Assembly (NCBI GenBank): GCA_017400135.1
Contig: JAFPVJ010000010.1
Coordinates: forward strand, 1-63,373
Direction: 5' to 3'
DNA from: Bacteroidales bacterium
Lineage (GTDB): Bacteria; Bacteroidota; Bacteroidia; Bacteroidales; UBA932
DNA length: 63,373 bases
This document shows, one piece after another, positions 41,727-44,971 of this stretch (its first letter is position 1; each line of letters starts with the position of its first letter). The notes beneath the pieces are model-generated. The model ran no database searches. It was not told the DNA's origin and worked only from the letters and a program-made list of their open reading frames with translations. The translations under genes were made by a program, and so were the position numbers.

Positions 41727-43484
41727 TCAGTCCTTTTCTTGTATTATTCTCATTGTATAAACCATCTTTTCAGCCTGGTCTTTTACTTTGCACTGGATCC
41801 TGGCCCCCTCGAAATCGGCCTCATAAACAAGGAACGCGCACTTGTGGTGTATGCCTGGCTCCACCCCTACAAGCGATGCGGATGGTAGCCATAGGTTAAC
41901 CTTGGTGGCCAGTTCCATCGTTTGGGCCAATAACCCATACCTGGCATTCTGGGAGAACGTCTTGGACAGGAATCCCTTGTTGACAATCAGTTTCTCCCCG
42001 CCGTTTTCAAGGACCATCCTCTTTCCCTTCTGGCCATTCGGGAGGGTTGTTTCGGGCAAGTGTCGCTCTGCCCACTCATCGGCCGCTTTCCTGATAGAGA
42101 TCCTATCCTGTTCGGTCAAGGTCGCCGCTTCTTTTTTCGCCAAAGTCCGAATCAGGGCACATGCCTGACAAAGCTGGTTTTGGGCAGGGTTGGCCGCTAA
42201 CTCAAGTTTCCTGGGGCAGGTCGTGCACTGGCTGATGGTGTACGGGTTGTAGTCCGGGAAGGTCTTGCCCTGTTTCCCCGAGTTGAAGCGGAACATCCCC
42301 TTGGTGTCATTGGCCAGGGCCTCTTCCCCTCTCCGGAGTGCATCCATCCGGTCGGTTGCCGGGTACTTGTCCTTGAGGACCTGTACCACGGTACAGCGGC
42401 AGTTCCAGCCGTTCGGCGGGTAGTATTCGTCCCAGAAGGAATCGGAAGGGGGTAGGGTTACGCCGTGGAGAGCCGCGTGTTCCGGCCGGACCTTGTCGTC
42501 GCCGGCAGTCCGGTACTGGAGGTTGTAGTCATCCCCGTCCTCCTGGAACCGTTCCCACTTGCCGGCCATTTCGGCCGACGCCTCGGCATAGTTGTACTCC
42601 GCCCGGAGATAGTGCCGGTTGTAGGTCTCGTCGACTGATTGAACGTCGCTCAAAAACCGCTCAAAACTCTTTTTCTGGCCACTTTCATCCAGCAAGGAAG
42701 GGAAGGCTTCATTCAGTTCGTGGAAGGTCTTCATTCCCGAGAAGATCCAGTCGGATTCCTGGAGCCGGGAGCGCATCACGTCGGACATCTCCACCTGCCG
42801 GAAGGCGCTGTCCAGGATTGAGGCATGGGCATTGATGAAACCGGTAACGGCAGGGTCCTCAAGTAGTTCAATCCGTAGGGAAGCCCCCTCTTCTTTGAAA
42901 AGGGCTTTCATCATCCCGCGAAATTTTATCCCCAAGGTGTCCATCTCCAGATCCTTTAGTGACGGAGGGATAATACCGTTCTCCTTGAAGAAACCTTCAA
43001 CTAGTCCCAATTCAATCTCGTTCATCTCCTTACGAAGCGGCCCGAAATATGCGGCTATACATTCGGCGAAGTATTCATCAGGACTGGTACTCGCATAGTG
43101 TCCAAGAGCATGTCTAAGATCTTTTGAGAAAGCTCGATCGAGCACACCTCTCATGAGGTGATATTTCTGGGCAATAACGTGCCCCAGTTCATGGTCAATG
43201 GTAGCCCTCCCATAGTCATCCCGATCTGCAACAGCGCGGAATCTGTATCCGTATTTCTTCTGGAACTGTTCCAGCTTTTCATATATCTTATCCGGAGAGC
43301 GGAGGAACGCCGTCGAAATAGAGAACTCCCTTCCATCCCGGCTGACCGACGCATCTGCATTCCTTTCTGGGGACTTTTTGAACGTGCTGAACTTTGGTAA
43401 CTTGTAAAGATCCATCCGTTCCTTCAACTGATAAAGAATGGGGGTAAGATTAGCAAGATCCGTTTTTTTGAATTCAAAATCCAC
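41727..43484 (-). CDS. Mu gpF-like minor head protein with zincin-like and BECR-nuclease-like domains
   Basis: 585 aa from a GTG, but the frame stays open and protein-like for 47 further codons up to the portal slippery site, with no ATG, GTG or TTG; frameshift entry is likely. Domains: N-terminal DHELGHVIAQ (HExxH) with downstream Glu in PDEYFAECIAAYFG, a zincin-like peptidase. The middle is gpF (RTAGDDKVRPEHAALHGVTL, PPNGWNCRCTVVQVL) with two CxxC pairs. A C-terminal 100 residues (KRMVLENGGEKLIVNKGFLS ... HHKCAFLVYEADF) resemble the phage Barnase/EndoU/colicin/RelE nuclease fold. This is the layout of MuF polymorphic toxins. Confidence 0.85.
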   Translation of the reverse strand: MDFEFKKTDLANLTPILYQLKERMDLYKLPKFSTFKKSPERNADASVSRDGREFSISTAFLRSPDKIYEKLEQFQKKYGYRFRAVADRDDYGRATIDHELGHVIAQKYHLMRGVLDRAFSKDLRHALGHYASTSPDEYFAECIAAYFGPLRKEMNEIELGLVEGFFKENGIIPPSLKDLEMDTLGIKFRGMMKALFKEEGASLRIELLEDPAVTGFINAHASILDSAFRQVEMSDVMRSRLQESDWIFSGMKTFHELNEAFPSLLDESGQKKSFERFLSDVQSVDETYNRHYLRAEYNYAEASAEMAGKWERFQEDGDDYNLQYRTAGDDKVRPEHAALHGVTLPPSDSFWDEYYPPNGWNCRCTVVQVLKDKYPATDRMDALRRGEEALANDTKGMFRFNSGKQGKTFPDYNPYTISQCTTCPRKLELAANPAQNQLCQACALIRTLAKKEAATLTEQDRISIRKAADEWAERHLPETTLPNGQKGKRMVLENGGEKLIVNKGFLSKTFSQNARYGLLAQTMELATKVNLWLPSASLVGVEPGIHHKCAFLVYEADFEGARIQCKVKDQAEKMVYTMRIIQEKD

Positions 43485-43596
43485 ACGTTCTGCAATGTGA
43501 TCGAGAATGAATGCCTTGGCCTCTTCAACCGTTTGAAAGTACTTCCCCCTCGCAAGGTTAATCCGCCTGCCCAGGATCAGGCTATACCTTCGGTGC

Positions 43597-43631
43597 AGCC
43601 CCTCGTAGTCGGAGGGGCTCAGTCGAAAAAA
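43597..43631 (-). other. Predicted programmed -1 ribosomal frameshift site joining portal to gpF
   Basis: On the minus strand, TTTTTTC (43631-43625) fits the X XXY YYZ slippery form in the portal frame (GGT TTT TTC). A 5-nt spacer follows, then a perfect 8-bp stem AGCCCCTC/GAGGGGCT with a 7-nt loop (43619-43597). The portal stop TGA is two codons past the slip. A -1 shift enters the gpF frame, giving a 1081-aa portal-gpF product. Confidence 0.65.
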
Positions 43632-44971
43632 CCGGGCCGGCCGTTCTTTGAGGGATCCTCACCCTTCCCGTCATCACCGGGTGCAGGCGTGAGGGTGTTC
43701 TGCCGACGCTCGCCGACGGGAAGCCCGTACTTGTCGGCGAAGTAGCTGCCATCCACCTCGTAGTTATTGAGGATCATTTCCTCGAAGGCCTTCTGCTGCT
43801 CCGGCGTATAGTCCACCGGCTCATCCCAGTCGAACCGGAGTCCTTTGACCGGGAACCCCAGCTTCACCATTTTGGGGATAAGCTGGTCATTCACCATATC
43901 CCTGATGCCGTCAGCAATCTCGAAGATCAGGTTGTCCAGGACCTTCAGATGGACCTGGGACTGGGAGAGGCTGGCACCGTCCTCAATGGTCATCGTAACC
44001 TGCAAGACCAGTTTGGATAGCTCGGAATTGGCCCGGTCCACCCGTTTGTCGTAAACATTGAAGGCGTCCCCGCGGGAACTTTCCTTGAGCTCGATTTCGG
44101 AATCCGACGGGAGGACTGCCCAGGCCTTGTACCCCATGTTCTCCAGCATGGCACCCATCTGGTCGATGTCCTTCTGGTCCCGGCTGGTGGTCTTGGCCAC
44201 CCGGATGGGGAGGCCGAACATCTCGGCGAACGCGTCCCAGAAAGCCAGTGCGTATTTCTTCGGGATGGTCTGGATGGCCGCCTTGAGATACAGGCCGAGG
44301 TCATCCTTGGCCCCCACCTCAATGAGCCAGTCCGAATACGGAGGCTCGCGGTACGGGATACCGTCCTCCCAGGATCCGCCCGGGTTGACGGTCACGCGCC
44401 CGTATTCCGGGATGACGTGCTTGCGGGGGATGAGTTCCACCCCGTCGAACGTCAGCAACCCGTCCTCGCGGGTGATGACGTTGCCCAGTTCTATGAGGGA
44501 GTGCCCCCAGTAGCGTGCCTTGAGGGCGTAGCGCATCAGCTGCTTGAACCACTGTGTCTCGAAGTATTTCAGCGCTTCGGGATCCGGGTCCCCATCGGGC
44601 TTTGTCAGCTTGAAGGCCTTGCCCATGATGAACCCTTGCAGCTGCCCCTCGCACCCGGACAGGTGCAGGTCCAGTTCTACGTCACGGTAAATGTCATAAA
44701 GGCGCTGGCGGTTCGGGGAGTGGACGTTGATGGCCATCTGCTGGGCTTCTCGCCATTCTGCCAGGTCCCTCTTGGCCAGCAGATCAGTAGCCCGCTGAAG
44801 GTCGATGACAATCTTTTGGAACTGCATCCGATCGGACTTCCGGGACAGGTTCAGTTTGGTGCCGTCCTTGAGGGTGAGTTCCGCGGGCAGGTCCAGCCCG
44901 GAAAGGGCCTCCATTCCGGTCGATGCTATCTGGCCGGAGAACAGTTTCTTGAAAGAGTCGATGATTGGCAT
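43619..44971 (-). CDS. Portal protein (Mu gp29, DUF935-like)
   Basis: 450 aa. Portal-family features: SGCEGQLQGFIMGKAFKLTK, WFKQLMRYALKARYWGHSLIELGNV, the LPIRVAKTTSRDQKDIDQMGAMLENMG stretch, and a C-terminal IADGIRDMVNDQLIPKMVKLGFPV. It forms the dodecameric DNA gate at one capsid vertex. Gene order here (terminase, gp36, portal, gpF) and strand differ from Mu. The last codons carry the frameshift signal described separately. Confidence 0.9.
   Translation of the reverse strand: MPIIDSFKKLFSGQIASTGMEALSGLDLPAELTLKDGTKLNLSRKSDRMQFQKIVIDLQRATDLLAKRDLAEWREAQQMAINVHSPNRQRLYDIYRDVELDLHLSGCEGQLQGFIMGKAFKLTKPDGDPDPEALKYFETQWFKQLMRYALKARYWGHSLIELGNVITREDGLLTFDGVELIPRKHVIPEYGRVTVNPGGSWEDGIPYREPPYSDWLIEVGAKDDLGLYLKAAIQTIPKKYALAFWDAFAEMFGLPIRVAKTTSRDQKDIDQMGAMLENMGYKAWAVLPSDSEIELKESSRGDAFNVYDKRVDRANSELSKLVLQVTMTIEDGASLSQSQVHLKVLDNLIFEIADGIRDMVNDQLIPKMVKLGFPVKGLRFDWDEPVDYTPEQQKAFEEMILNNYEVDGSYFADKYGLPVGERRQNTLTPAPGDDGKGEDPSKNGRPGFFD

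Follow-up and report, generated by a model that had tools for sequence, protein, structure and literature searches.

How is gpF translated in a prophage whose portal gene ends inside a gpF reading frame that is already open in the −1 register? The question is raised by a locus on the minus strand of the window, the whole 63,373-nt stretch of DNA analysed here, which is contig 7 in a 28-contig, 2.3 Mb assembly. A first-pass annotation had proposed that a −1 frameshift signal fuses the portal protein to gpF, and this is strongly supported by the heptamer, the spacer, the covarying stem, the switch of the frame under selection and the missing starts. Programmed −1 ribosomal frameshifting (−1 PRF) at T TTT TTC very probably yields both portal and portal-MuF from one start.

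The portal and gpF genes and their junction

The features of the locus, all on the minus strand, are as follows.

43619..44971, minus strand: portal gene, 0-frame product of 450 aa (Portal_Mu PF06074, 223 bits, E=6e-66)
43625..43631, minus strand: slippery heptamer T TTT TTC (from sequence; conserved in relatives)
43619..43621, minus strand: portal stop codon TGA, 3 nt past the heptamer (from sequence)
43597..43619, minus strand: hairpin, AGCCCCTC / 7-nt loop / GAGGGGCT (from sequence, RNA fold and covariation)
41727..43625, minus strand: putative gpF (MuF) −1-frame coding region, 632 codons plus stop (from the ORF, Pfam and −1-frame selection)
43482..43484, minus strand: first possible −1-frame start (GTG), 47 codons past the shift (from sequence)
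43179..43193, minus strand: HELGH (HExxH) motif of gpF, past the frameshift and N-terminal to the MuF domain (from alignment)
42387..42656, minus strand: Phage_Mu_F domain PF04233 (from Pfam)

The names "portal" and "gpF", first given from the sequence alone, proved right on the Portal_Mu match listed above and on the match of gpF to Phage_Mu_F PF04233 (E=8e-17, 62 bits versus a cut-off of 29.6). The gpF gene lies directly downstream of the portal gene and carries the MuF domain, the two traits by which the MuF protein superfamily is recognized. The portal profile had two solved relatives, both portal sequences, and the profile of the gpF alignment A2 had no solved relative at E <= 0.01. The host element is a Mu-like prophage encoding an rve transposase, an AAA ATPase, a Mu-like I protease and DUF3164, together with a Phage_tail_S morphogenesis protein, an amidase, a gp36-like head-tail adaptor and a terminase. 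The nearest named relatives of its portal (L095-L100) reside in Bacteroidales or Bacteroidia assemblies.

Read on the minus strand from 43631 downward, the junction consists of TTTTTTC (43631-43625), GACTG (43624-43620) and a hairpin formed by AGCCCCTC (43619-43612), the loop CGACTAC (43611-43605) and GAGGGGCT (43604-43597). Each element of the TTTTTTC, 5-nt spacer and 8-bp hairpin arrangement named in the first-pass annotation was found at the coordinates given there. The 3′ end of the portal ORF reads GGT TTT TTC GAC TGA, with the heptamer in the portal frame, and the hairpin begins 5 nt past the heptamer, its first base being the last base of the portal stop codon. The RNA fold at this site has z = −3.11 versus 200 dinucleotide shuffles, one of which (1/200) folds equally well. 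The window thus holds both a 0-frame X XXY YYZ heptamer and a downstream RNA structure, as −1 PRF demands, and the −1 frame directly downstream of the site bears the marks of a translated one. That frame is open from 43658 to 41727 (643 aa from stop to stop) and leads straight into gpF, as had been claimed; its first ATG, GTG or TTG is indeed the GTG at 43484, none lying upstream in frame. The predicted size of the shifted product also holds, since 449 portal residues and 632 further residues add up, by arithmetic from the ORFs, to 1081 aa.

In the proposed mechanism, ribosomes would reach T TTT TTC and the hairpin 5 nt downstream would stimulate a −1 slip. Ribosomes that do not shift would make the portal protein of 450 aa, and those that shift would make the portal-MuF fusion of 1081 aa, whose putative junction peptide would span ...PGFFRLSPSDYEG.... 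We infer from sequence comparison that ribosomes really shift here, at some efficiency.

Conservation of the signal among relatives

Homologues were gathered by protein similarity from viral contigs, one genome per species and phage records (Mu being taken by accession), the signal not being used as a criterion, and further relatives were sought with the portal and with the fusion family phrog_35074. Among the 406 records (the window is one of them, and some contigs were fetched more than once), 297 show a gpF that overlaps the portal in the −1 frame together with an in-frame heptamer, 7 have gpF in the −1 frame without a heptamer, 41 have portal and gpF in the same frame as one ORF, 6 have gpF in the +1 frame and 8 have it in frame 0 beyond a stop; the unusable records comprise 35 without gpF, 9 with the portal off the contig end and 3 without a portal. 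The non-redundant set (<85% identity over 120 nt, kinship not corrected for) holds 155 heptamer-bearing "−1" loci and 33 in-frame loci, both sets requiring a heptamer by construction. Two loci, L028 and L153, have the usual motif with another frame parse, perhaps through assembly indels or in decaying prophages.

These counts bear on the idea that portal and gpF are an in-frame fusion broken by a sequencing error or a recent mutation. In-frame fusions are indeed present in relatives (the 41 records), but the same frame relation recurs in 155 non-redundant loci, including named isolate genomes and annotated phages, and its conservation already refutes this explanation, to which we assign a negligible probability.

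The viral collection was also scanned with the pattern TTTTTTCGAYTRAGCCCCN{10,12}GGGGCT, which matched at least 120 stretches. Among the matches listed, a portal ORF lies in frame upstream at 112 of 115 loci, gpF lies in the −1 frame downstream at 109 of 115, and both are found at 106 of 115. Of the three loci without a portal, two are truncated where the stretch begins and the third is L516; all six loci without gpF run off the stretch end. L516 has a stop 47 codons upstream of the motif and gpF downstream of it, perhaps owing to an indel or a decaying prophage.

The heptamer is TTTTTTC in 141 of the 155 "−1" loci, TTTTTTT in 7, AAATTTT in 4, and GGGAAAG, AAAAAAA and GGGAAAT in 1 each. A spacer of exactly 5 nt is present in 113/155, and a stem with five or more base pairs, three or more of them G-C, in 150/155, a count controlled via fold z-scores rather than by shuffles of its own. 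Inside the portal genes of these loci, none of 2744 control 60-nt windows contains an in-frame TTTTTTC and 85 of 2744 contain any X XXY YYZ heptamer; the signal at the portal end is not due to chance. Other Phe-Phe sites in the ORFs of TTTTTTC loci are coded as T TTT TTC in 4 of 116 cases. Over the 48 nt downstream, the mean fold z is −2.32 in the 155 loci and −2.19 in the 33 in-frame loci, versus −0.17 in 185 control windows.

A run of six or seven T at 148 of the 155 "−1" sites would also suit transcriptional slippage, in which the fusion is made on the T run by the polymerase rather than by ribosomal frameshifting. Against this, other members carry A AAT TTT, G GGT TTT and G GGA AAG, heptamers that fit tandem tRNA slippage and not polymerase slippage, and a downstream stem at a fixed distance is typical of ribosomal frameshifting. 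Transcriptional slippage is disfavoured by the non-T heptamers and is in our estimate very improbable.

The stem itself covaries. In 103 loci of fixed geometry, which were chosen on the outer stem bases, the outer pairs are nearly invariant and the inner pairs change together. Inner pair 7 (TA 44, AT 29, GC 25, GA 3, TG 1, GT 1) is paired in 100/103 loci, versus a shuffle mean of 44.9 and a maximum of 60, and inner pair 8 in 91/103, versus a mean of 56.7 and a maximum of 70. The encoded residues (Ser-Glu 43, Thr-Val 14, Ser-Leu 13, Ala-Ala 7) change along with the inner pairs, as expected if pairing constrains the protein there. Among 22 divergent sequences (rows of alignment A3, likewise filtered), 95.5% of the cells are paired versus 85.7% in shuffles, 18 cells are changed on both sides versus 5.4, and the covariation score is 0.318 versus 0.132, each value being reached by 0/500 shuffles; six slid versions of the stem score at most 0.078. 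Two further measures on the same 22 sequences did not stand out, namely pairs changed on both sides (3 versus 2.2, reached by 123/500 shuffles) and further pair types (10 versus 8.0, reached by 41/500). By eye, the hairpin is altered or enlarged in at least six records (L011, L012, L016, L034, L035 and L072). In L079-L087, T TTT TTT CAATAA or CAATAG replaces T TTT TTC GAYTRA, with the spacer unchanged and a stem of GCCCTGA/TCAGGGC.

Selection on the −1 frame and possible gpF starts

Between related loci, third-position substitutions upstream of the heptamer (portal/−1/other frame) number 523/104/173, 215/70/88 and 166/88/67; they are mixed within the stem (195/260/169) and number 126/328/117 and 131/350/78 downstream of it. 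As judged from these counts, the coding signature changes from the portal frame to the −1 frame at the heptamer. In 171 of the 297 records (89 of the 155 non-redundant loci), the open −1 frame contains no ATG, GTG or TTG until at least 30 nt past the stem, the other 126/297 having an earlier one. For loci of the former kind (32-37 pairs per draw, three draws), reading the stretch before the first start in the −1 frame gives pN/pS of 0.15-0.20, versus 1.4-1.8 for the other frames; these values indicate purifying selection on the −1 frame ahead of any start codon. Entry via the slippery site is the best explanation of such protein-like selection where no start lies upstream.

Alternatively, gpF could be a separate protein, made by ordinary translational coupling from a start in its own frame (here the GTG at 43484; in relatives an ATG close to the MuF core) or from a CTG overlapping the portal stop. 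A possible start does exist downstream in 155/155 "−1" loci, the first ATG past the heptamer lying at a median of 138 nt, and database records annotate such starts. Many loci have an ATG near the MuF core, so that some free MuF by internal initiation is possible. Separate initiation nevertheless fails to account for the purifying selection on the codons before any start and for the many loci without an early start, and it leaves the heptamer, the spacer and the covarying stem unexplained. The codon overlapping the portal stop varies (CTG 64, CTA 30, TTA 22 and ATA 6 of 155); re-initiation at CTG was therefore rejected, the codon not being conserved. An ATG-started gpF as the sole product is disfavoured by the start positions as well as by the −1-frame selection before any start.

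The Hankyphage group bears on both sides of this question. Hankyphage p00, BKO1-TP4 and jmh72_hp carry T TTT TTC 46 nt before the portal stop, followed by GCCCC..GGGGC. Part of the group has, in addition to the signal, an ATG or GTG at the portal stop, in favour of a separate gpF, but other members (such as L289, L295 and L299) have no start there, and in two Hankyphage-type records the annotated MuF starts disagree, lying 24 nt apart (5269 vs 5293). Overall, a separately initiated gpF appears improbable as a replacement for the frameshift. The Hankyphage-type records L091, L402 and L403 list MuF as a gene of its own, and the starts they give differ.

Two other named phages are of interest here. 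Elizabethkingia phage TCUEAP3 carries the signal; its annotated MuF/minor head protein (L400 5257-5533) begins 275 nt past the portal end, so that the initial part of the −1 frame is left out, and with it the beginning of the MuF profile match. In Winogradskyella phage Peternella_1 (L094), the signal is less clear, with A AAA AAA in the portal frame and a weak stem, and the MuF frame has no start until a GTG at +101.

In Mu, SuMu, MP29, Vibrio martha 12B12, Faecalibacterium FP_Mushu, and Flavobacterium FPSV-S1 and lotta8-2, a MuF ATG lies no more than 20 nt from the portal stop, and the final 90 nt of the portal frame contain no T-run heptamer; in that frame AAAAAAT occurs at −40 in lotta8-2. 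The first-pass annotation had taken an ATG-started gpF in homologues, or the loss of the slippery site in close relatives, to speak against its reading. Such a start occurs in these seven distant phages and is not conserved in close relatives, in which the heptamer is kept, so that these checks largely favoured that reading. SPP1 gp6-gp7 and Mu gp29-gp30 are the same gene pair as here with MuF separately started, and Mu differs from the window in having no heptamer at the end of its portal gene.

Two polarities and a possible mixed portal ring

The frameshift reading of the first-pass annotation stands; what it missed is how widespread the signal is and that it occurs in two polarities. Of the 41 records with an in-frame portal-MuF fusion, 38 have a slippery heptamer in the 0 frame of the linker. 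Among the 33 non-redundant in-frame fusions, 13 have T TTT TTC with a GCCCC..GGGGC-type hairpin, 14 have A AAT TTT and 3 have G GGT TTT (−1 frame in both of these types: immediate TAA), and 3 (L326-L328) have no convincing signal. A hairpin was not demanded for the A AAT TTT and G GGT TTT types, and a loose stem criterion is passed by 30/33. In the T TTT TTC fusions, the −1 frame stops after 15-27 codons, and other Phe-Phe sites in the in-frame fusion ORFs are coded T TTT TTC in 0 of 22 cases. With the fusion in the 0 frame, ribosomes that stay in frame would produce portal-MuF, and those that shift would produce portal with a short tail or none. The members with inverted polarity include a Porphyromonas gingivalis phage (phage013a) and the human-gut phage contig MT838538. 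L326, L327 and L328 are possibly secondary losses of the signal; MT835523 (L411) has an A run only, and some phages may accordingly live on the fusion alone. In L319, the scoring picked a site other than its TTTTTTC with hairpin.

Placing the two polarities on a quick portal tree of 89 selected sequences takes five changes; once the three longest rows are removed (86 rows) it takes four, which is also the least number forced by the starred branches for the inverted label. On this evidence polarity has switched four times or more. As the signal was kept through these changes, it seems to have outlived the choice of frame, and its retention in both polarities suggests that portal and portal-MuF both seem to be required. 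The recurrence of the flips points to selection for keeping two products side by side.

The inverted members resemble dnaX, in which the long form tau is in the 0 frame and a −1 shift leads to an early stop (gamma). They differ in that portal-MuF is not a clamp-loader subunit and comparable sites occur here in both polarities, as if Gag/Gag-Pol were found in one lineage and tau/gamma in another. Lambda G/G-T is a −1 frameshift of a tail assembly chaperone. Putative sites are UUUUUUC at SPP1 17.5 and T TTT TTC at the tail genes of Pseudomonas Mu-like phages, according to the available parts of the papers (PMC6316719, PMC4378225). The portal-MuF sites are like these tail chaperone frameshifts in placing X XXY YYZ, often UUUUUUC, in a morphogenesis gene and in giving two products with a common N-terminus. 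In contrast to them, the genes here are Portal_Mu and Phage_Mu_F, of the head vertex and not the tail, MuF is a probable virion component, and the hairpin is a compact, conserved GCCCC/GGGGC. In-frame portal-MuF fusions in Microbacterium phage clusters EA/EB are described as plain fusions in the accessible part of PMC7302621. These fusions and that of Porphyromonas phage013a hold the same two domains in one chain as the shifted product here; among the relatives in this study, a frameshift signal makes or undoes the fusion, and phage013a has the inverted form.

Phage tail genes are a known setting of −1 frameshifting; portal-MuF is a new target. A portal-MuF frameshift is not described in the available text of the open-access papers listed, subscription literature lying outside that scope. 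In the consulted parts of the PRFect paper (PMC10885494), VIP2 and MuF-like genes are among the "false positives", with a known single fusion gene cited, and the word "portal" is absent from its main text. The Wolbachia GTA paper (PMC10299305), as far as its accessible text goes, concerns a hydrolase and not the portal.

Some of the fusions may carry cargo. A segment of ~200 residues between the frameshift and the MuF domain, bearing HExxH, is present in the window (42940-43520, minus strand) and in a minority of relatives, including L009, L010, L027, L032, L095, L106, L133 and L191. All 10 aligned sequences share the residues H156, E157 and H160, and 19 of the 20 records (repeat fetches included) with the MuF match >400 nt past the stop have HE[LF][GA]H. 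Most relatives align to the window gpF only from ~residue 240 onward, and the segment looks like an exchangeable cassette, putatively of metallopeptidase type. No Pfam family other than MuF was above its cut-off in gpF, and the structure prediction of gpF (alignment A2, 10 rows) was not usable, with a mean pLDDT of 43.5. MuF polymorphic toxins, reportedly described by Jamet et al. in 2017, are said to have an N-terminal MuF domain and a C-terminal toxin domain; the HExxH of the window gpF sits N-terminal to MuF. The suggestion in the first-pass annotation that the gpF copies may be toxin-bearing drew no support from these analyses.

Known portals have 12 subunits. In the available part of PMC5576092, SPP1 gp7 (MuF) binds the portal and sits in the head at 1-2 copies per capsid, and that of PMC6316719 likewise gives a few copies of MuF. 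Because MuF binds the portal and is present in few copies per head in known phages, the frameshift probably builds a mixed portal ring; as a stoichiometry model, only some subunits would carry MuF on their C-terminal end, with no separate recruitment step, and if only a minority of ribosomes shifted, a low number of MuF copies would follow automatically. Where the polarity is inverted, most of the product would be fusion unless shifting were very efficient, which speaks against one fixed low ratio. The inverted members argue that it is the coexistence of both forms that is kept.

On balance, it seems reasonably likely that Bacteroidota Mu-type phages broadly recode for a mixed portal ring with MuF, and any cargo, on some of its subunits, and that the need for two products is old and strong, the signal surviving repeated frame flips. 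Among phage structural genes, tail chaperones are the best-known case of programmed frameshifting; at the junction studied here, such a shift would join the portal to MuF. It would also explain why MuF genes are annotated with missing or inconsistent N-termini, as in the Hankyphage relatives and TCUEAP3. With the mixed ring, the question of how a phage might keep MuF to a few copies at a single vertex gains a concrete answer that can be tested, and the symmetry of the portal ring may need reconsidering in the phages that bear the signal.
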